A stretch of DNA of 37,138 bases from a virus. The stretch spans positions 1-37,138 of IMG/VR virus record IMGVR_UViG_3300031977_000431; one strand, given 5' to 3'. Shown here in pieces: positions 1 through 37,138 of the stretch. Under the pieces are notes generated by a model. The model was not told the origin of the DNA. It saw nothing but the letters and a program-made list of their open reading frames with translations, and did no database searches. Both the position numbers and the translations under genes were made by a program. Position 1 is the first letter of the stretch. Each line of letters starts with the position of its first letter.

Positions 1-308
1 CACACAAGTTTGATACCCAGGCGAGACTGGGACAATACTGGTACTAAACATCCATAGACTGTGGATAAGTAGCTTTAAGCTGTGGATAAGACTATGAGAA
101 ACTTTCAGGAAGGATTTGTAATAGTCCGATATGGTCCGTTACAATATAACCAAGTGCTGATTAAGCCACATGGTATTCTTTCTGAATGTCTAGTCTTAGC
201 CAGTAGCCGAGGAGTTGGTCGCTCCGTTCAGCACTGTCTTTTTACTTTACCCCACTCATTCACAAAATCAAATAGCTTTCACATTTTTGAATAGCCATTC
301 ACAAAAAC
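1..308. other. Origin-like non-coding region with two DnaA boxes (copy A)
   Basis: There is no convincing gene in these 308 bases. Two perfect DnaA boxes (TGTGGATAA, reverse complement TTATCCACA) lie at 60-68 and 81-89, exactly 21 bases apart, about two helical turns. A short stem CCCAG/CTGGG (16-20 with 27-31) lies just upstream, inside weaker outer pairing between 8-17 and 40-49. An AT-rich stretch follows (about 235-310). Both copies keep these elements unchanged although they differ nearby. A phage without a polymerase gene that recruits host DnaA would fit. An ORF of 70 codons on the plus strand (82-294) is disrupted by a one-base indel in copy B and is not accepted as a gene. Confidence 0.55.
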
Positions 309-533
309 TTATAGGTCTGGCTCCTGCTGCTCTTCGATTGCCTCTTCAACACTAAGCTCTGCCTTCCAGTCGTAACGATCGATAGCATCAATCAGGTTAC
401 CTTCTTCATCACCACCAATGACACGCACGACGTTAAATATGTCGTATGGGCAGTATTTGATGAACACATCTAGCCAATCACCATCTGCGTTGAATACTTC
501 AAACACTGCATCGTAATCTTCTTTAACTATCAT
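309..533 (-). CDS. Small acidic early protein, copy A (74 aa)
   Basis: I do not recognise the family. The protein is small and acidic, and its C-terminal two thirds, from IKYCPYDIFNVVRVIGG onward to the end EEQQEPDL, are almost identical to the copy at 36266-36595. The start has a good ribosome binding site (GGGAGGAC). Copy A lacks the 35-residue N-terminal extension present in copy B, so the two alleles differ in domain make-up as well as sequence. It is the last gene of the early operon before the origin-like region. Several aromatic and acidic residues around residues 10-25 vary conservatively between the copies. Confidence 0.8.
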   Translation of the reverse strand: MIVKEDYDAVFEVFNADGDWLDVFIKYCPYDIFNVVRVIGGDEEGNLIDAIDRYDWKAELSVEEAIEEQQEPDL

Positions 534-554
534 GACCGTCCTCCCGAAGATGGC

Positions 555-746
555 TTACGCCACCTCTCCATAAACACCATTTTTAAGATCGTTGCAAAAC
601 TCAGATGCGCCTGACTGATGCTGACCTGGTGACAACCAAAGATCGCCAGAAGGAGTGCGCACCATCCAACGGTTACGCTGACCTTCAGCCTTAACGTAGC
701 CGTATGCGAATTTTCCGTTGAAGCCTTTGATTTTGAAGTTGCTCAT
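555..746 (-). CDS. Small hypothetical protein, allele-specific (63 aa)
   Basis: The function is unknown. The gene is the first one behind a consensus promoter (774-802) and starts with a strong ribosome binding site (AAGGAGATACACAC before ATG). The product is small, with a glycine/aromatic-rich N-terminus (FKIKGFNGKFAYGYVKAEG) that could form a small beta barrel, which is inference only. In the right-hand copy the equivalent position holds an unrelated 72-residue protein (36616-36834) behind the same leader, so this locus appears to be an exchangeable cargo slot. Confidence 0.75.
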   Translation of the reverse strand: MSNFKIKGFNGKFAYGYVKAEGQRNRWMVRTPSGDLWLSPGQHQSGASEFCNDLKNGVYGEVA

Positions 747-764
747 GTGTGTATCTCCTTAGTT

Positions 765-789
765 GATGTAAACATTATACGATTACATC
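765..789. promoter_or_regulatory. Operator-like inverted repeat over the early promoter
   Basis: GATGTAA (765-771) and TTACATC (783-789) form a perfect 7-base inverted repeat with an 11-base spacer, centred on the -10 box of the promoter at 774-802. A dimeric repressor bound here would block RNA polymerase. The HTH protein at 5255-5458 is a possible ligand (inference). In copy B the arms are degenerate, so regulation may differ between the alleles. Confidence 0.5.
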
Positions 790-802
790 TAAGGTGTGTC
801 AA
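774..802 (-). promoter_or_regulatory. Consensus sigma70 promoter driving 555-746 (P1)
   Basis: On the minus strand TTGACA (797-802) and TATAAT (774-779) are perfect consensus boxes with a 17-base spacer. The -35 box contains the stop codon of ninG (TGTTGA), so the promoter starts inside the upstream gene. Upstream is the AAACAAAAAGTG block shared with three other leftward promoters. Confidence 0.88.
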
Positions 803-1389
803 CACTTTTTGTTTCTTATTTTCTTTAAATGCCGTAATCGCTTACGAAATATTGCCGTACATCTCTGCAGGTACTCGATTGTGAACTTGCGAGGAGTGTT
901 ATCCGACTCTAATGCTAACACCAGGTCTTCACCGATCTTATCCATTAAGCCGAGACGATACGATATAGCCGACCCTGACTCGTAGCGGTTACATCGGACG
1001 CATTGGGCGTGTATGTTCAAGGTATTAAAACGCAGGTGACTAGCAGAACCCCTACTCCGATAGTGACCTGCATCCATCGTTCCACCTAGTTTATTCTCTG
1101 GCAGGTTACCGCACGATATGCATGGCTTACCTTCATCCCGGTATCGCACATAAGCATTCACTGCTACCTGGCAGTCTTTGATGTAATCGCGTGCAGTCTT
1201 GATCTTTTCTTTGCGCTCTTTCAGATCTGCGCGTTTGGCCTTCTGTACGGCCTGCTGACCGGTTTTTGACTTGGTATATGACTGTAGGCATTCATAGGAA
1301 CAAAATGCCCGTAGGGAGCCTGTGATGGCCTTCTGTGAATCGACCTTCTTTCGGCAGCTAGAACAGCGCCTGGTCTTAGACTGGATCAA
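799..1389 (-). CDS. ninG: NinG/Rap-family recombination protein
   Basis: NinG of lambdoid phages is a DNA-binding nuclease-like protein that assists recombination and processes branched DNA. The 196-residue length fits the family. The N-terminus has a zinc site (C9, C12, C30, C34), followed by a lysine-rich coiled stretch. Then comes the typical C-terminal region with PCISCG, a DAGHYRS motif and CVRCNRYESG, an HNH-like Cys/His arrangement. The start is a TTG overlapping the stop of the upstream gene, so translation is probably coupled; no better in-frame start is visible. The last codons carry the -35 box of the next promoter. A partial second copy lies at 36887-37138. Together with the NinB-like and YqaJ/Sak3 genes it makes a recombination set. 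Confidence 0.9.
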   Translation of the reverse strand: MIQSKTRRCSSCRKKVDSQKAITGSLRAFCSYECLQSYTKSKTGQQAVQKAKRADLKERKEKIKTARDYIKDCQVAVNAYVRYRDEGKPCISCGNLPENKLGGTMDAGHYRSRGSASHLRFNTLNIHAQCVRCNRYESGSAISYRLGLMDKIGEDLVLALESDNTPRKFTIEYLQRCTAIFRKRLRHLKKIRNKKC

Positions 1390-23524: not shown

Positions 23525-24091
23525 TTATGCTCCGCTTAAATAGTACCAACCAGTGGCAATGTATTTGTTGCAAGTGTAAACAGGGTTGCCACGATGCGTA
23601 TGCGTCCATGCAGCAGGAAATAGAACCACTGTCCCTTTCTTTGGCTGAATCTGTAAACCCTGTTCAATAAATTCTGTTGTACCTTCACCTTCCGGTGTGT
23701 CGTTAAGGTAGATCATCCATGTTAGACATCGAGCTGAATTTTGACCATCTGCGCCTTGCTCTGCGTGCCACAAGTGAAAACCACCCTTGGGCGGTGTTCT
23801 TTGCACTTTGCAGGTGATCGAGTAAAAATCATTCATACCCAATGCGGGATGTTCATCTTGATACAGTGCAAGCGCCTGATTCAATACACCGTTGGTCTCA
23901 CTAGCTAAATCCTGAGCGTCACGATCAAAGTATCGACTAGCGTCTTTTCGGTTGCGTAAACCGCCATTAGCATTTTCACCACAGTCATTACTGTCTGAGC
24001 TATTTTCTAGTAGCTCATCTAGCTTTGCGACCATGCGATCACAGTAATCATCTGATGCGAGATTGTCGTACACACCTATAAAATCAGACAT
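23525..24091 (-). CDS. 2-oxoglutarate-Fe(II) oxygenase
   Basis: The protein belongs to the prolyl-4-hydroxylase-like oxygenases, which hydroxylate protein or nucleotide substrates using 2-oxoglutarate. The iron ligands appear in FHLWHAE (H109 with E111, or H106) and WTHTHRG (H164 or H166), and the 2OG-binding basic residue is probably R167. TTEFIEQ with KKGTVVLFPA precedes the second His as usual. It sits in the tail gene block rather than with metabolism genes, so modification of a tail or host surface component is a possible role (inference). The ATG at 24089-24091 is chosen by its AAGG spacing. Confidence 0.87.
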   Translation of the reverse strand: MSDFIGVYDNLASDDYCDRMVAKLDELLENSSDSNDCGENANGGLRNRKDASRYFDRDAQDLASETNGVLNQALALYQDEHPALGMNDFYSITCKVQRTPPKGGFHLWHAEQGADGQNSARCLTWMIYLNDTPEGEGTTEFIEQGLQIQPKKGTVVLFPAAWTHTHRGNPVYTCNKYIATGWYYLSGA

Positions 24092-24398
24092 CAGACACAT
24101 CCTTAAACTGGATCAGGTTATCCTTAGCCTCTGCCGTAGCGCGAAGCAATGCCTGTGACGACTCATTAGCCTTAACCATCTCATTGCGGAATGACTCAAC
24201 CGCAGATGATGTGTGGCGAGTATGAAGTGCATTCTCTACTAGCAACATTGGTGTCCAAGCCATTGCGCAAGCATAATCGTCAACTTCTTTACCAGAGTTA
24301 GGATCAGTGCCTCGCATCTGAACAAACCATGCGCAATCAAACATCTTGCATGGCTCAAAATTATTCAGTGGACAATTGTTTTTAACTTCCAACTTCAT
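24084..24398 (-). CDS. Conserved small protein with N-terminal cysteines (104 aa)
   Basis: Cysteines near the N-terminus (NCPLN, PCKMFDCAW, YACAMAW) suggest a metal or iron-sulfur site with four ligands. The C-terminal half is helical (SSAVESFRNEMVKANESSQALL). Similar small proteins next to a 2OG oxygenase and fibre genes are frequent in marine phages, but their function is unknown. The 8-base overlap with the oxygenase gene suggests joint expression. Confidence 0.78.
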   Translation of the reverse strand: MKLEVKNNCPLNNFEPCKMFDCAWFVQMRGTDPNSGKEVDDYACAMAWTPMLLVENALHTRHTSSAVESFRNEMVKANESSQALLRATAEAKDNLIQFKDVSDV

Positions 24399-28230: not shown

Positions 28231-30481
28231 AGTAATATCCTCGTTTACGCTGCTCTTCAGTCAACTCAGCATTGCCCATTGTCGCAGGTTTTATCGATTC
28301 CATAAATAGCGGTAGAAGCATATCAACACCAAATGCAATGTTACCGAAGTCACGACCAGGGTTAGCCACGCCTGTTAGATCAGACTGGCCTGCTGCTTGT
28401 GCTGCCATAGGTAGAGCTGAATCTGGTACATCAGTGCCTGCAAATGAGTTGTTAGCCAATGCAGCCAGTATAGCACTACCTGCTGCTCCACCCTTAATGC
28501 TCGCATCTTTGTAGCTAGATCCTGCGGTAGATTGAATATCTCTGATATCACGACCTTCTTTGTACCATGAAGGATTATCGATACCGCCCGCCATATCCAT
28601 AATTCGATTGCGTGCCTCTTCTAGGGAGATCTTACCTGCTTTCTGCAGAGCCATTACATCGTTAACGGCTTTGACGTTTTTCTCTGTCTTGAACCCGGCA
28701 GGGAATAGACCGCGAACACCTTCCCAGGTAATTGATTGCATTTCACGCGGTAAAACACCTGCCTGTTCAGCAGCCTGGCGATACGCATCAGCATACACAC
28801 CGTATGTACCCTTAGCGCCTGTGCTTGCAGAGCTTGCTGCACCGGTACCAAAGTTGTGTGCAACAGGTATTGATTTACCACTGAATGGCTCAACCAGACC
28901 CGCTGCTACAGCATGTGTATCGATGGTAACATCACCAAACTTAGCATTTGGATCGATGATGTTGTTGTAGAAATTACGGACCTTATGCATTCCGCCCATC
29001 TGTTTTGAGATGTTCTCTTGGGTAGGGTTCTCAAGCACGGAAATGGCCTTAGCTATCTCGGTGTTACTACCCCAACCGGTCTTCTTGTCTTCACCTTTTG
29101 CTGTCTTAGCAAAGTCCATGAACTGACCATCTGCACTCACTATACGGTGGGCACGATTGTTGTATGTCTCATCAAAACCACGAACGTACATGGCTTTCTG
29201 CGTATCAGTAAGCTCTTCCCATGGCTTAGATACGACCTCTTTAAGGTCTTTAGCGTACTTCTCATCGCCATATATGCGACTGAAAGTATTCTTCATATCA
29301 TCGGTTACACCAAAATCCTTCTTGGTCTTAACGATGTCTATTAGTCGCTCTGCCAGTGACACGTTCATGTACCAGTCTTTTTGCGGTGACAGTGCTGCCA
29401 TTACGCCTGCTACAGAATTTGGAGCAACCTGGTATTCAGCAGCAAACTGGTTAGCTAGTTTGTTAGCCCCGTCGTACCACAGCTTACTCTGATCACGAAC
29501 CTCTTCAGGGATTTGATCAAACATCCATAGCAGGTTGTCACTTACACGGTCTCGGAAATCATTGAACACTCGATCCGGGCGACGCGATGAAATTGGTGTA
29601 TTGTATCCACGGAGCAACTCGGCATTGCGTGCTACCTGCTTATCACCACTCGCCAACATAGAGTCAACGTCGATGATCAGGTTGTTCAGTATTGGGTTCT
29701 CTTGTGCTGTTTTAGCCGTAGGGAATCGAGTAGCAATACGGGCATCATCTGGTGTAAATATTCCACCTGCATTCTTAACCCATCCTGCCTCTGCATCTTC
29801 AGACTGGAGTGCAGCGCCAAGACCTAGACCACCCGCTGTAAGGCCAGACAGAGCGCCCATGATATTTGGACCTTTGTATTCTGGATCAAATGCAGCGTTT
29901 ACAGACTTAACATCACCGCCACTAAATGCACGCGATGTTGCCGGATTTGCAAGGTTTGACTCTGCAGCTTCAGGAAAGTATTTATTCAGATAATAGTTAC
30001 CGATACCGGGATCGATGACGTTTTTAAATTCGGTAGATTTAATACCTTGTTTGTAGTTCTGGTCAAAAATATTATCTGTAGAGATTTGCTTTGAGTATGT
30101 ATCTGGCGTTACTTCTATGCCATTAAGATTGCTCCACAGATTACCACCTACGTCGTAGCTGACCTCTGGGTTTTTAGTATAGACAGGATATACAGCACCG
30201 ACTGGATTACCATCTTTCATGGTCATACCATAACTAGATGCCACATACGGATGACTACTTGCCCAAGACGCTCGGTCATTATTGATGTACTCCTGACCAC
30301 TCCTTGAGCCTTTGTAGAACACATTATCTACGTCATAACCCTGCTCGGCAGCACGGGCCATACGACTAGCCTCATCCATTGGCAGTTCGCCAGAACTGAT
30401 GCGCTTTGCTACAGACTCTGGATAACCAAGAGCCACTAGGTCTTCAACTTTGCGACCAATCCAATCAAGAATGCTAGACAC
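28220..30481 (-). CDS. Large virion protein with N-terminal ADP-ribosyltransferase-like domain (753 aa)
   Basis: Residues about 50-160 (VFYKGS, ASSHPYVASSYG, GAVYPVYTKNPEV, then FKNVIDPG) resemble the ADP-ribosyltransferase-like domain of phage polyvalent proteins, which are ejected into the host. The catalytic set is not clear: no strong conserved final Glu is seen. A glycine-rich hydrophobic stretch (residues about 208-225) follows. The middle region includes SVAGVMAALSPQKDWYMNVSLAERLID and TIDTHAVAAG, seen in marine phage virion proteins. The GTG start has GAGGGAAG. The gene lies between the terminase and adaptor genes. Confidence 0.72.
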   Translation of the reverse strand: MSSILDWIGRKVEDLVALGYPESVAKRISSGELPMDEASRMARAAEQGYDVDNVFYKGSRSGQEYINNDRASWASSHPYVASSYGMTMKDGNPVGAVYPVYTKNPEVSYDVGGNLWSNLNGIEVTPDTYSKQISTDNIFDQNYKQGIKSTEFKNVIDPGIGNYYLNKYFPEAAESNLANPATSRAFSGGDVKSVNAAFDPEYKGPNIMGALSGLTAGGLGLGAALQSEDAEAGWVKNAGGIFTPDDARIATRFPTAKTAQENPILNNLIIDVDSMLASGDKQVARNAELLRGYNTPISSRRPDRVFNDFRDRVSDNLLWMFDQIPEEVRDQSKLWYDGANKLANQFAAEYQVAPNSVAGVMAALSPQKDWYMNVSLAERLIDIVKTKKDFGVTDDMKNTFSRIYGDEKYAKDLKEVVSKPWEELTDTQKAMYVRGFDETYNNRAHRIVSADGQFMDFAKTAKGEDKKTGWGSNTEIAKAISVLENPTQENISKQMGGMHKVRNFYNNIIDPNAKFGDVTIDTHAVAAGLVEPFSGKSIPVAHNFGTGAASSASTGAKGTYGVYADAYRQAAEQAGVLPREMQSITWEGVRGLFPAGFKTEKNVKAVNDVMALQKAGKISLEEARNRIMDMAGGIDNPSWYKEGRDIRDIQSTAGSSYKDASIKGGAAGSAILAALANNSFAGTDVPDSALPMAAQAAGQSDLTGVANPGRDFGNIAFGVDMLLPLFMESIKPATMGNAELTEEQRKRGYYYGM

Positions 30482-30538
30482 GAACTTCCCTCAAAATAGA
30501 TAAAGCTCGCCCATAGCTATTTTAACGGTATTGGCTAA

Positions 30539-31849
30539 TTAAGCAACACCGCTAAGGTTTCTGCGTAGTGGAGTAGACCATGATGTCTGATCAACCAGAC
30601 CCTTGCGATAGATTGCGATCATACCGAAGGCATCTGCACCATGCGATGACCAGTCATGCTCTGGACCTAAGCCCATGTTGCGTGCCTCGTCTCTCTTCTC
30701 GTGATACCAACCCAGTGCCTCTCGACCGTACTTGGTGTTCTCATCGTGGAATCGTACCGATGGGAACATACGACGCGTAGCCTCAATACGGGCCATTACA
30801 GCACCTGCACCCTGATTAGGTATAACGTCAGTGACAAACCCGGCATCGCGCAGGAATGACTCAGGTGTAACCTTGTAGACCATATCGTGCTTTCGTCCAT
30901 CGTGTGGCAGCACACAGATAGCCTCTTCGTATCCGCGCTTGCGCATCCACCCTACATGCTCATCAAACGGCTGACCCACAGCTTCGTAGTAATCCACTAC
31001 ACGAACCTCTTCACCGATGAACTGAGCCACCCAGACGGCAGTAGCATCTGACCGGTTGGACGTGCCACCTATGTCCCAGAATGCATAGGTCTTGTTGATA
31101 GGGTCACGACCAAAGAATCCAATACGTTGTTCCAGTGCAGCAGTAGACAGTGCCTGGGCATAGTATGCACCTTCTAGCACCGTAGCGTACTCACCTTCCC
31201 AGACGTGTGGATATCTGTCCGGTGTCATACGGAAACAGTCGTCCTTCTCCTGCAGCAGGACACTACTCAGCCATGGATTATCTGACCAGTTAGCACGAAC
31301 GACTACAGCGCCCTCTGGGATATTCTCACCACGCAGTAGCTGATCGATCGCATCAGTAGGACGACTAGGGTTCCATGATGCCCAGATCTCTGACCCTTCT
31401 TTACGGATGGTAGGCGTTAGCAGCTCCAGTGATCGGTGCGAGATAGACTGAGCCTCCTCAATCCATGCCCGGTCGAAGCCTTCAAGTGACTTTATAGAGT
31501 CAGCAGTGTGATCCTGCATACCCATGAAGATGATGATGCCATCACCAGGTGTCTCGATGTGCTCTCGCAGTACCTTAAAGCCTTGAGCCTCACCTAGACC
31601 ATATGCCTGCAGCTTATCCTCGATCAGTCGCTTAGATGATTGCTTGAGTGATTTCTGCACCTCACGGATACAGACAGAGCGCATACCTGGATTGCGTAGA
31701 TGGTCATCTATCATCAGCTCGACAAAGAAGTGCGACTTACCACTACCACGACCACCCCAACAACCCTTATAGCGTGCAGGATGCAGTAACGGCTCAAAGA
31801 CCTCTGCGGTCTTAAACTGAATCTTAGTCTTGTGTATCTGTTGTGTCAT
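30539..31849 (-). CDS. terL: Large terminase subunit
   Basis: The terminase ATPase pumps DNA into the head and cuts it. Walker A GGRGSGKS lies at 32-39, Walker B IEEA at 130-133, and the RNase H-like nuclease shows WDIGGTSNRSDAT and HGADAF. The 436-residue length and motif spelling resemble Sf6/P22-like and PBSX-type enzymes, which package by the headful mechanism. That predicts circularly permuted ends with identical redundancy, which bears on the diverged repeats of this window. The start lies inside the small subunit gene. Confidence 0.95.
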   Translation of the reverse strand: MTQQIHKTKIQFKTAEVFEPLLHPARYKGCWGGRGSGKSHFFVELMIDDHLRNPGMRSVCIREVQKSLKQSSKRLIEDKLQAYGLGEAQGFKVLREHIETPGDGIIIFMGMQDHTADSIKSLEGFDRAWIEEAQSISHRSLELLTPTIRKEGSEIWASWNPSRPTDAIDQLLRGENIPEGAVVVRANWSDNPWLSSVLLQEKDDCFRMTPDRYPHVWEGEYATVLEGAYYAQALSTAALEQRIGFFGRDPINKTYAFWDIGGTSNRSDATAVWVAQFIGEEVRVVDYYEAVGQPFDEHVGWMRKRGYEEAICVLPHDGRKHDMVYKVTPESFLRDAGFVTDVIPNQGAGAVMARIEATRRMFPSVRFHDENTKYGREALGWYHEKRDEARNMGLGPEHDWSSHGADAFGMIAIYRKGLVDQTSWSTPLRRNLSGVA

Positions 31850-32246
31850 CGCCCGGCCTAATGATTACTCGCTCTACAAGTGTTGGCATAAAGGTGCCGT
31901 CAGATGATGTGTGGTCCAGTGTAGTCTTATTGAACCCATGCATAGCGTTAAGCTCTTTGACTGAGCTGATACGCTCCATGTTTGTAGACTCAGCGCCCCT
32001 AGCAATAGTTGCTAATACCTCTACGCTGTCTGCTCTATCCCATAAAGAGATATCTGATAACTGCTTGCGTAGGTCGCCAACCCTTGAGGAAACCTTGGGG
32101 TCAGCCATTAGCTTAGATGCGCTTTGCTGTACTGATTCAGGCTTAGTGGTTGGTTTTACATCGAATGCTGTGCGGTATGCATCTGCCTGGCTCATGCCGT
32201 CGGCTACACACTGTGCAAACTTCTCTTGCTTTGGCGTTAGTTCCAT
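31824..32246 (-). CDS. terS: Small terminase subunit
   Basis: The start LTPKQEKFAQCVADGMSQADAYRTAF is the classic HTH of terminase_2-type small subunits that recognise the packaging site. A middle coiled region (LMADPKVSSRVGDLRKQLSD) supports oligomerisation. The 140-residue length is typical. It overlaps terL by 26 bases and follows a candidate promoter at 32288-32316. The ribosome binding site is GGAG. Confidence 0.92.
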   Translation of the reverse strand: MELTPKQEKFAQCVADGMSQADAYRTAFDVKPTTKPESVQQSASKLMADPKVSSRVGDLRKQLSDISLWDRADSVEVLATIARGAESTNMERISSVKELNAMHGFNKTTLDHTSSDGTFMPTLVERVIIRPGDDTTDTQD

Positions 32247-33321: not shown

Positions 33322-33350
33322 ATTATCTCAAAACGGTATCGAGTCGTCAA
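33322..33350 (-). promoter_or_regulatory. Early promoter inside the primase-like gene end (P3)
   Basis: TTGACG (33345-33350) and GATAAT (33322-33327) on the minus strand, spacer 17. The upstream AAACAAAAAGTG block matches P1 and P4. The -35 box is made from codons for the C-terminal SVDDSIPF peptide of 33328-33768, so protein tail and promoter share bases. Confidence 0.82.
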
Positions 33351-33768
33351 CACTTTTTGTTTCATTTGTTTGCATTAATTGATCACGCTTACCCTGGATA
33401 CCTTCCAACCGGGCTTCGGCTAGTTGGACCCTGCGCTTGTCGGCTAGTGTGGTTGGTGGTGTTACCTTTGCCATCTCTACCACTAGTCGATCCATCTTCT
33501 CTTCCTCCTGCATCTTCTTGGTAATTACTGGTCTCTGGTATTCAGAGTCAGGTGCAAAGATCTCTTTTAGATCTAGCCCAAGCGACTGCATAACATCAGG
33601 ACCACCGGCACCACATACAAAACAGTAACAACCGACACTTCCATCACTCCTCTCTGATATCATCAGATTTCTGTCTTTACCTTTATGCACCGGACATGGT
33701 GCACGCCATTTAGCCTTTCCGCTTTGTCTTACGTTATCCAGGCTTCCCAAAATATTATCAATGCTCAT
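33328..33768 (-). CDS. Stand-alone CHC2 zinc-finger (primase-like) protein with SSB-like tail
   Basis: The zinc motif PCPVH, then CYCFVCG (C25, H28, C49, C52) is the CHC2 finger of DnaG-type primases, but the 146-residue protein lacks the TOPRIM catalytic domain. It may bind a template or partner primase. The C-terminus SVDDSIPF copies the SSB tip DDDIPF, the known docking peptide for primase, helicase and repair factors. The ATG at 33766-33768 has GAAGAGGAAGTC; the longer upstream reading is rejected. It overlaps the helicase stop. The promoter P3 is encoded in its 3' end. Confidence 0.85.
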   Translation of the reverse strand: MSIDNILGSLDNVRQSGKAKWRAPCPVHKGKDRNLMISERSDGSVGCYCFVCGAGGPDVMQSLGLDLKEIFAPDSEYQRPVITKKMQEEEKMDRLVVEMAKVTPPTTLADKRRVQLAEARLEGIQGKRDQLMQTNETKSVDDSIPF

Positions 33769-35252
33769 GCTGACTTCCTCTTCGCCCATCGGATGTTCTG
33801 ACTAGTGATCCAATTTCTGACATCTTGTGGTATCTCTAAGCCACGATATACAGGTCCGATCTTGTTAGGCCATACGCCAAACTTCTCTTTGTATTTATGT
33901 TTTGCCCAACCGTCGTTGTAACCCTTACTTCTAGCGTAGTTTACAAGACCGCCATACCACAATTGTTTCTGCTCTTTTGTGTAGGCTTTATTATCTACCT
34001 TAGCTACCTTCTGCAGCTCCTCTTCAGTGGTCTCTAGTTGGACCTTGATCGGAACCTCGTAACCACATGAGCAGCGCAGGCCGATGAACTCTCGGTAACA
34101 CTGTGGGCACTCTCTTACCTTTGGCTCTGGCTTATCTTTGTCCGTCGTCAGACTGCGCTCGTCGTATTGCTTTTCACCGTCGTCTAGCTCTGCCGGTACG
34201 ATGTCTTCAGCAAACCCATGCAATGCCAGGTTGTTGGTGTGGGATAACACGATAGCATTCTCTTTGCCTGGTGCCGTCCTTAAAATTCTTCCAATTCTTT
34301 GGACCCAGATAATTTTTGATCTGGTTGGAAATGCGTCAATGAGGCAGCTCGTCTTTGGACTATCCCACCCTGTATTCAGTAGGCGCGAACAGGATAGGAT
34401 CAAGAACTCTCCACGATCGTGTGCATCCAATATCAACTGACGGTGTTCTTTATCCATGTAGCCATCAATGTGTTCTGCGCCAATACCTGCTGCACGGAAC
34501 TCTTCTACCAGTTGTTTGCTGTGTCGGATGCTAGGCGTAAATGCAACTGTCTGCCTTCCCTCAGCATGCAGCTTCCAGTTCTTAATGATATCACCGTTAA
34601 GCAGCTCATCCTTCTCGATAGCCTCAGCCAGATCACGCTCATCGTAATCACGACCACCGGTTGGCAGTGTTCTACTGCGCACTCCCTCGGTAGCTATCTT
34701 GCGACCGGCATAATAGTCAGCCGGGCAAAGGTAACCCTGAGCCAATAGATCACGCGGTGTAATCGGCACGATCAGATCATCGTAATACTTACCCAGACCA
34801 CGGCTCATTGGCGTTGCTGATAGACCAATAAAGATAACTGCGTTGTATCGCTCCATCAGCTCGATTAGGTACTTTGGTACAGTGTGACACTCATCGACGA
34901 TCGCCAGGTCAAACTCGAATGGTCGCTTGCCTGCCTTTGCGCGTGCAGCCAATGTCTGGATTGAGCAAATTTGGACAGGTTTACTGTAATCGGTACGCCA
35001 ATGATCAGCCTGCATGACACCTACTGGTATCTTGTGATCATCGAAGCTCTCTAGCGCCTGTTCGACCAGGGTGATACGGTCACAGATGAACACTACCTTT
35101 TTACCTTTCTCTACAGCATTCTTAATGATCGCTGCTGCAGTGATGGTTTTACCAAACGAAGTAGGTGCAGCCAGGATTGGTCGCTTGTGACCGGTCGCTA
35201 TTGATTGGCGTAGCATGTTGATCGCCAATTCTTGGTGTGGGCGTAAATTCAC
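33765..35252 (-). CDS. Superfamily 2 DNA helicase (DEAD/DEAH, UvsW/type III-like)
   Basis: Walker A AAPTSFGKT at 28-36, DECH at 120-123, SATP (FIGLSATPMSRG) and a C-terminal QRIGRILRT motif VI are all present, so the ATPase should be active. After the helicase core there is a zinc ribbon (CPQC, CSCGYE) and a basic C-terminal region with a WYGGL-like fold often found in phage helicases. The GTG start has GGAGG. It probably unwinds or anneals forks and remodels recombination intermediates, as T4 UvsW does. It lies with the primase-like and nuclease-like genes. Confidence 0.92.
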   Translation of the reverse strand: MNLRPHQELAINMLRQSIATGHKRPILAAPTSFGKTITAAAIIKNAVEKGKKVVFICDRITLVEQALESFDDHKIPVGVMQADHWRTDYSKPVQICSIQTLAARAKAGKRPFEFDLAIVDECHTVPKYLIELMERYNAVIFIGLSATPMSRGLGKYYDDLIVPITPRDLLAQGYLCPADYYAGRKIATEGVRSRTLPTGGRDYDERDLAEAIEKDELLNGDIIKNWKLHAEGRQTVAFTPSIRHSKQLVEEFRAAGIGAEHIDGYMDKEHRQLILDAHDRGEFLILSCSRLLNTGWDSPKTSCLIDAFPTRSKIIWVQRIGRILRTAPGKENAIVLSHTNNLALHGFAEDIVPAELDDGEKQYDERSLTTDKDKPEPKVRECPQCYREFIGLRCSCGYEVPIKVQLETTEEELQKVAKVDNKAYTKEQKQLWYGGLVNYARSKGYNDGWAKHKYKEKFGVWPNKIGPVYRGLEIPQDVRNWITSQNIRWAKRKSA

Positions 35253-35720: not shown

Positions 35721-35751
35721 TTTACCCTCCCGTTTTCGGACAATAGTAGGT

Positions 35752-35912
35752 CTTTGATGGACTATAGGTGATCCATCTGGCCTTTTGTCTTCTCGTCTAT
35801 ACAGTCACAGTCATCAGCAATCATTTCGCGGTATATGCAGGCTGATAAAACCCGATCCTCTGCCACCGAAGTGGATATCACCATTAACGCTGTTTATTCC
35901 CGTCCATCAAAG
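35752..35912. repeat. 11-base perfect inverted repeat enclosing 139 bases
   Basis: CTTTGATGGAC (35752-35762) and GTCCATCAAAG (35902-35912) are perfect reverse complements. They enclose the weak 40-codon frame 35762-35884, next to the origin-like region. A large stem-loop, cruciform or paired protein sites are possible. Confidence 0.75.
35762..35884 (-). CDS. Possible small protein (40 aa), low support
   Basis: Frame MVISTSVAEDRVLSACIYRE, then MIADDCDCIDEKTKGQMDHL and stop. The C-terminal half looks protein-like (acidic, two Cys), but no clear ribosome binding site precedes the ATG; GGGAAT is too far upstream. It lies in the otherwise gene-free 545-base gap. Confidence 0.3.
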   Translation of the reverse strand: MVISTSVAEDRVLSACIYREMIADDCDCIDEKTKGQMDHL

Positions 35913-36016
35913 GTCGGACTGTACATCTGCATTGTTCGCAGGTGGTGCTGCAGAGGCCACACAAGTTTGATACCCAGGCGAGACTGGGACAATACTGGTA
36001 CTAAACATCCATAGAC

Positions 36017-36046
36017 TGTGGATAAGTAGCTTTAAGCTGTGGATAA
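36017..36046. other. DnaA box pair (copy B)
   Basis: TGTGGATAA occurs at 36017-36025 and 36038-36046 with the same 21-base register as in copy A (60-89). The 20-base sequence around and between the boxes is unchanged between the copies. The surrounding 35721-36265 is a 545-base interval without a strong gene, the longest in the genome. Confidence 0.55.
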
Positions 36047-36265
36047 GAACATGAGTAACTTTCAGGAAGGATTTGCAATAGTCCGATACGGTCCGTTACA
36101 ATATAACAAGTGCTGATTAAGCCACTTGGTATTCTTTCTGAATGTCTTTGTCTTAGCCAGTAGCCGAGGAGTTGGTCGCTCCGTTCAGCACTGTCTTTTT
36201 ACTTTACCCCACTCGTTCACAAAATCAAATAGCTTTCACATTTTTGAATAGCCATTCACAAAAAC

Positions 36266-36595
36266 TTATAGGTCTGGCTCCTGCTGTTCTTCGATTGCCT
36301 CTTCAACACTTAGCTCTGCTTTCCAGTCGTAACGATCGATAGCATCAATTAGATTACCTTCTTCATCACCACCGATTACACGCACGACGTTGAACATGTC
36401 GTATGGGCAGTATTTGATGTACACGTCTAGCCACTCATCGTTAGCGTTATATACTTCAAACACGTCATCGTAATTTTCTTTAATCTGCATGAAATGCCTC
36501 TTTGGTATCTTTTTGCATTGCTCTTGATAATACTTTGCGATGTCTTCAATTTTTACCGTATGTGCTTCACCATCAGCTTTAACTGTGTAAGACAT
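36266..36595 (-). CDS. Small acidic early protein, copy B (109 aa)
   Basis: Homologue of 309-533. The first 35 residues (SYTVKADGEAHTVKIEDIAKYY onward to KRHF) are not present in copy A; the remainder is closely related, with an identical last part. GGGAGACC precedes the ATG at 36593-36595. The extension can fold as a strand pair plus helix. The two alleles differ in composition at this end only, suggesting recombination in the middle of the gene. Confidence 0.8.
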   Translation of the reverse strand: MSYTVKADGEAHTVKIEDIAKYYQEQCKKIPKRHFMQIKENYDDVFEVYNANDEWLDVYIKYCPYDMFNVVRVIGGDEEGNLIDAIDRYDWKAELSVEEAIEEQQEPDL

Positions 36596-36615
36596 GACTG
36601 GTCTCCCTGGCAGGC

Positions 36616-36834
36616 TTACGCCTGCTCTCCTGATAACCAAAGTTGTGCAAATGGGCGAAACTCACCGTTACGCTGTTTAATCATTGGACGGTTGATAAAA
36701 GAGACATAAACCATCTGTCGATCACCGTCAATTTTAAGCGCGTTAGTGATAACAACTTCTTCACCAGACGTAGAAACTACTGCGTTAGCTGAATCAATGC
36801 GGTCGATTTTTACTTTCTGATTTACTGCAAACAT
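36616..36834 (-). CDS. Small hypothetical protein, swapped allele (72 aa)
   Basis: The gene occupies the place of 555-746 in copy A but is not homologous. The leader (AAGGAGATACACA) and promoter are shared. The product is beta-rich with VNQKVKIDRIDSANAVV and YVSFINRPMI, like an SH3/KOW-type fold (inference). Function unknown. Confidence 0.78.
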   Translation of the reverse strand: MFAVNQKVKIDRIDSANAVVSTSGEEVVITNALKIDGDRQMVYVSFINRPMIKQRNGEFRPFAQLWLSGEQA

Positions 36835-36860
36835 TGTGTATCTCCTTAGTTGGTGTAAAC

Positions 36861-36890
36861 ATTATATGATTACTACTAAGGGTACGTCAA
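36861..36890 (-). promoter_or_regulatory. Early promoter, copy B (P4)
   Basis: TTGACG (36885-36890) and TATAAT (36861-36866) on the minus strand with an 18-base spacer, one longer than in copy A. The AAACAAAAAGTG block upstream is conserved. The inverted repeat over the -10 box is degenerate here. The promoter overlaps the ninG stop as in copy A. Confidence 0.8.
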
Positions 36891-37138
36891 CACTTTTTGT
36901 TTCTTATTTTCTTTAAATGTCGTAATCGCTTACGAAATATTGCCGTACATCTCTGCAGGTACTCGATTGTGAACTTGCGAGTAGTGTTATCCGCCTCTAA
37001 TGCTAACACCAGGTCTTCACCGATCTTATCCATTAAGCCGAGACGATACGATATAGCCGACCCTGATTCATAGCGGTTACATCGGACGCATTGTCCGTGG
37101 ATATTAAGGGTGTTAAATCTAAGGTGTCCTGCCGAGCC
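36887..37138 (-). CDS. ninG: ninG, copy B, truncated by the window end
   Basis: The C-terminal 83 residues and stop of a second ninG copy are present; the 5' part lies outside the window. Protein differences from 799-1389 are few: for example SAG for SAS, HGQC for HAQC, LEADNTTRK for LESDNTPRK. The end CxxC site and the terminal NKKC are kept. Confidence 0.92.
   Translation of the reverse strand, partial: GSAGHLRFNTLNIHGQCVRCNRYESGSAISYRLGLMDKIGEDLVLALEADNTTRKFTIEYLQRCTAIFRKRLRHLKKIRNKKC

Follow-up and report, generated by a model that had tools for sequence, protein, structure and literature searches.

The diverged direct repeat at the ends of a metagenomic phage contig is very probably a self-overlap through a second genotype

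Results

The sequence analysed here is an IMG/VR virus record of 37,138 bases (G000 in our set, hereafter the window) whose completeness field is blank. Its two ends resemble each other, and we regard it as very likely that this resemblance is a self-overlap, arising because the contig was closed through a second, related genotype, and not a duplication. Very probably the phage has the region once rather than twice, and its true genome probably measures about 35.96 kb and holds a single ninG. The direct repeat is best regarded not as a feature of the genome, but as an ordinary and common assembly consequence of strain variation.

The contig ends form a mosaic direct repeat

The window begins and ends with similar sequence in direct orientation, and self-BLAST returned two forward repeats only, 1-526 against 35958-36483 (94.1% identity over 527 columns, E=0) and 748-1038 against 36835-37126 (92.5% identity, E=1.5e-119). 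The original prediction had described positions 1-1050 and 35958-37138 as a diverged direct repeat with a swapped block inside it, and both points were borne out by self-BLAST and alignment. The similarity of the two stretches is far above chance; between about 527-747 and 36484-36834 they are unalignable and code for a different small ORF on each side. That description can be refined in two respects, since the copies agree at every one of the first 91 positions and the mosaic runs on into ninG. Along the repeat, 91 identical bases are followed by a segment at about 92-95% identity, the replaced block, a segment at about 95%, and a final 45 bases at 67%. Counted on the left copy, differences number 0 in 1-91, 10/217 in 92-308 and 25/225 in 309-533, and, beyond the block, 7/50 in 748-797, 5/208 in 798-1005 and 15/45 in 1006-1050, with divergence jumping near 1006 (37094 in the right copy). 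No exact terminal repeat, by the standard DTR criterion of at least 20 bp, was found in the window (exact DTR 0), the exact match being the 91 bases at the left end only. Coordinates are collected in Table 1.

Table 1. Features of the two copies of the repeat and of the adjoining helicase gene.
Feature	Position	Strand	Basis
Left stretch, identical to 35958-36048	1-91		Exact match; two perfect DnaA boxes
Left allele, ninG-distal segment	92-526		About 92-95% identity to 36049-36483; includes ORF 309-533
Small ORF, 74 aa, left allele	309-533	-	Frame and C-terminus shared with 36266-36490
Swapped block, left version	527-747		63-aa ORF 555-746 (-); unalignable to right version
ninG, complete, 196 aa, NinG/Rap Holliday-junction endonuclease family	799-1389	-	Pfam PF05766 8.5e-48; phrog_171 1.1e-70
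Helicase, adjoins ninG region in relatives	33765-35252	-	PF04851/PF00271; synteny
Right copy, very probably an overrun of the circular map via a second genotype	35958-37138		Self-comparison, differences by segment
Small ORF, right allele, 124 aa from TTG	36266-36640	-	Upstream extension; C-terminal 74 aa are the counterpart of the left ORF
Swapped block, right version	36484-36834		72-aa ORF 36616-36834 (-)
ninG, partial, C-terminal 83 aa, second allele	36887-37138	-	PF05766 positions 116-192, 77.5 bits

Both alleles keep intact reading frames

In minus-strand direction, the complete ninG of the left copy is followed by the 63-aa ORF, the 74-aa ORF and the contig start. The right copy opens inside ninG, at the contig end, and continues through the 72-aa ORF, the 124-aa ORF, a non-coding stretch and a 152-aa ORF to the helicase. 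The complete ninG passes the curated cut-off of PF05766 (163.2 against 25.4 bits), and the frame of the ninG fragment is open past the contig end, so that this copy stops where the contig stops. Between the two sides, the base changes in the 74-aa ORF, whose frame is intact in both, are synonymous in 10 cases and non-synonymous in 15, and those in ninG are synonymous in 14 cases against 6 others. Because the frames are intact and the ninG changes mostly synonymous, both alleles look like working genes; the same pattern rules out sequencing error as the source of the divergence.

Such a pattern would also suit a true tandem duplication, where the diverged ninG and small-ORF loci, both apparently encoding working proteins, would lie in one genome and the piece between 37138 and 1 would be missing from the contig. 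However, the second copy ends exactly at the contig end, which would have to be a chance coincidence with the contig break. We consider this very unlikely, and just as unlikely its variant in which a second allele integrated beside the first, leaving a genome that holds both alternative accessory blocks.

Three further observations concern the coding content of the window. From the 152-aa ORF to the small ORF, a stretch of about 545 bases (35721-36265) contains no convincing gene in an otherwise densely coding genome; Rfam and tRNA searches gave no matches, including none in Rfam for this stretch. Positions 33346-33381, in the overlap of the primase gene and a 101-aa ORF, match 798-831 at the end of ninG (83%, E=4e-4); the match is AT-rich and possibly reflects chance or a small shared element. 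Finally, a 2OG-Fe(II) oxygenase gene (PF13640, 4.9e-14) lies at 23525-24100 amid tail genes.

The region is a single locus in related phages

A NinG profile search covered 19 records, the window and 18 relatives. Each of the 18 relatives gave exactly one match and none gave two; only the window gave two, the latter of them cut by the contig end. A further search was in agreement. The ninG region sits once, in the interior of the relatives' contigs, and in 14 relatives, which include near-copies so that the independent cases are fewer, ninG and helicase lie on one contig in an order that bridges the left part of the window to its right part. Closing the window at 1 = 35958 yields a circle of 35,957 bases in which about 1.5 kb separate ninG from the helicase; in relatives this distance is 1.3-3.7 kb. 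One long contig of 35,482 bases (G001), with the gene order yqaJ, ssb, cro, ninG, helicase, primase, terL, tail and head genes, erf, yqaJ, is by gene order the circle of the window, opened at yqaJ instead. The relatives recovered by a terL search of genome contigs were all at ≤68% identity. In the length of its circle and the distance from ninG to helicase, the window matches relatives that have no duplication, a further point against the tandem arrangement. The original prediction had offered closure through a second genotype or a true duplication; the former is supported and the latter disfavoured by relatives in which ninG is single (18/18) and its region single and interior.

The interval between ninG and helicase varies in gene content

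ORFs between ninG and helicase differ in nearly every relative, with scattered pairwise matches only; a right-side ORF of the window weakly matches L027 (27% over 117 residues), and the window's small ORFs are otherwise without relatives in the collections covered. As judged from these gene comparisons, the interval is a gene-content hotspot between conserved genes, and a swapped small ORF is therefore expected there. Two strains differing at this place by a replaced small ORF is ordinary phage mosaicism.

No match was found for the 63-aa ORF of the left block in Pfam, PHROGs, phage records or IMG/VR, nor for the 72-aa ORF of the right block in Pfam, PHROGs or phage records, and scans with the 152-aa, 124-aa and 63-aa proteins gave no relatives. 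The small ORFs of the window had no match among phage records, nucleotide searches of phage records likewise gave none, and exact-pattern scans of IMG/VR with two conserved parts of the repeat were also negative. Pattern and protein scans found no contig with allele L (the left version) or allele R (the right version) alone, in a collection from which the records nearest to the window may be missing. Lacking such outside relatives, the alleles could not be compared one by one with outside genomes.

A 4.2 kb contig (L016, 3300045135_001041) encodes a terminase protein 99% identical to that of the window. Its DNA similarity (93.7%) is limited to window positions 30333-31889 and its remainder has no match to the window, a further sign of mosaicism.

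The identical stretch contains two DnaA boxes

The probability that the first 91 bases would be free of differences was 0.002 by permutation when the 31 differences over 1-526 were considered, and 0.028 with 1-308 only. Two perfect DnaA boxes, 9-mers of the sequence TTATCCACA, lie in this stretch on the minus strand at 60-68 and 81-89, 21 bases apart; their copies at the right end span 36017-36046, and the window contains no further perfect box. Given two such boxes in the identical stretch and none elsewhere save in its copy, the repeat might be read as a recently duplicated regulatory or origin element under constraint, the 91 bases being identical because of their function. Yet no perfect box was found between ninG and helicase in 13 relatives, and constraint would account for the 91 identical bases but not for a second, truncated ninG; we see an exceedingly small chance that this reading is correct. 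The 13 relatives, none of which is among the closest genotypes, do not support the idea that the 91 bases are identical because the boxes are conserved, and a DnaA-dependent origin, if present here, would be specific to the lineage of the window. The label of origin region given to this locus by the original prediction thus finds slight support in the two boxes and none in the relatives.

Under closure through a second genotype, positions 1-91 are probably shared sequence ahead of the point in the assembly graph where the genotypes diverge. An exact run of 91 bases followed by divergence fits a contig that starts at a graph branch. Among default k-mer sizes, however, 91 is uncommon, and some of the run could stem from conservation around the DnaA boxes. 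At the right end there is no exact match of k-mer length to the left part, and a merge of the alleles does not explain that end.

Other viral contigs also overlap themselves inexactly

As a control, ends were compared in 22 long viral contigs, window included. In 3/22 the ends repeat each other exactly, over 99, 127 and 141 bases, which are k-mer lengths. Inexact end overlaps were observed in five of the 22, namely the window, G001, G011, G024 and G026 (4/21 without the window). The overlap of G001 measures 135 bases with one mismatch, its final 99 being exact; that of G011 (142 bases) is exact over its initial 126 and then diverges, as does that of G026 (124 bases at 98%) after an initial 116. 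In G024 (L129/L130; IMG/VR 3300020045_004406), positions 1-926 match about 43631-44554 of 46512 at 88% over about 927 columns, which is possibly a further overrun. Imperfect self-overlap being present at the ends of other examined contigs, the weight initially placed on the finding was overstated. The authors of CheckV reported that peaks in terminal-repeat length correspond to assembler k-mers, and treated k-mer-length repeats as assembly products (PMC8116208). Moreover, strain heterogeneity perturbs assembly, and de Bruijn assemblers cannot phase variants lying more than k apart (PMC5610896, PMC11443906).

Discussion

The following scenario very probably accounts for the repeat. The record is a contig, assembled from a metagenome, of a podovirus-like phage whose map, of about 35,957 bases, is circular (a circular molecule, or a permuted and terminally redundant one). 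The source sample would have supplied reads of at least two close genotypes differing in the ninG-helicase interval. At the left end the assembler would have been on one genotype, carrying allele L; having gone round the circle once, it would have re-entered the locus through the other, carrying allele R, from 36049 onwards, and ended inside ninG, about 1.2 kb past the circle, the 91 identical bases representing an overlap in the assembly graph. Each real genome most likely holds one copy of the locus, and L and R would be alleles linked by homologous recombination in the conserved flanks around the replaced small-ORF block.

Two genotypes would also be needed if a mixed infection had given rise to a recombinant concatemer and individual virions packaged from it carried one allele at each end. 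Such terminal-redundancy heterozygosis is known in principle for headful phages and classically in T4, and the premise of the original prediction that headful packaging makes the redundancy identical within each virion is therefore not strict. However, a metagenomic contig is built from a population and does not stand for a single virion, and ends made by headful packaging would not all coincide at this site; we hold this explanation to be highly improbable.

If closure through a second genotype is correct, the record overstates the genome length by 1,181 bases, and the second ninG in its annotation is spurious. The finding is chiefly cautionary: overruns of this kind mimic linear genomes or gene duplications, and exact terminal-repeat tests can miss them. 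Indirectly, the repeat also gives a glimpse of how phages within one sample vary in the ninG-helicase hotspot.

The window resembles the DTR contigs of CheckV, defined by direct terminal repeats of k-mer length, in that the whole circle is covered and its start is repeated at the end. In contrast to these, its repeat is about 1.1-1.2 kb long and inexact, because the second pass very probably follows another genotype, and the exact-DTR test therefore does not call the window complete. Conserved flanks, a replaced small ORF and abrupt shifts in divergence are likewise features of allelic mosaicism in the accessory-gene hotspots of tailed phages, although here the mosaicism appears inside one contig and not between two genomes. 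Compared with the NinG/Rap genes (PF05766) of lambdoid and marine phages, the complete ninG is a full-length, unremarkable member of the family, and the second copy is a fragment cut off where the contig ends.
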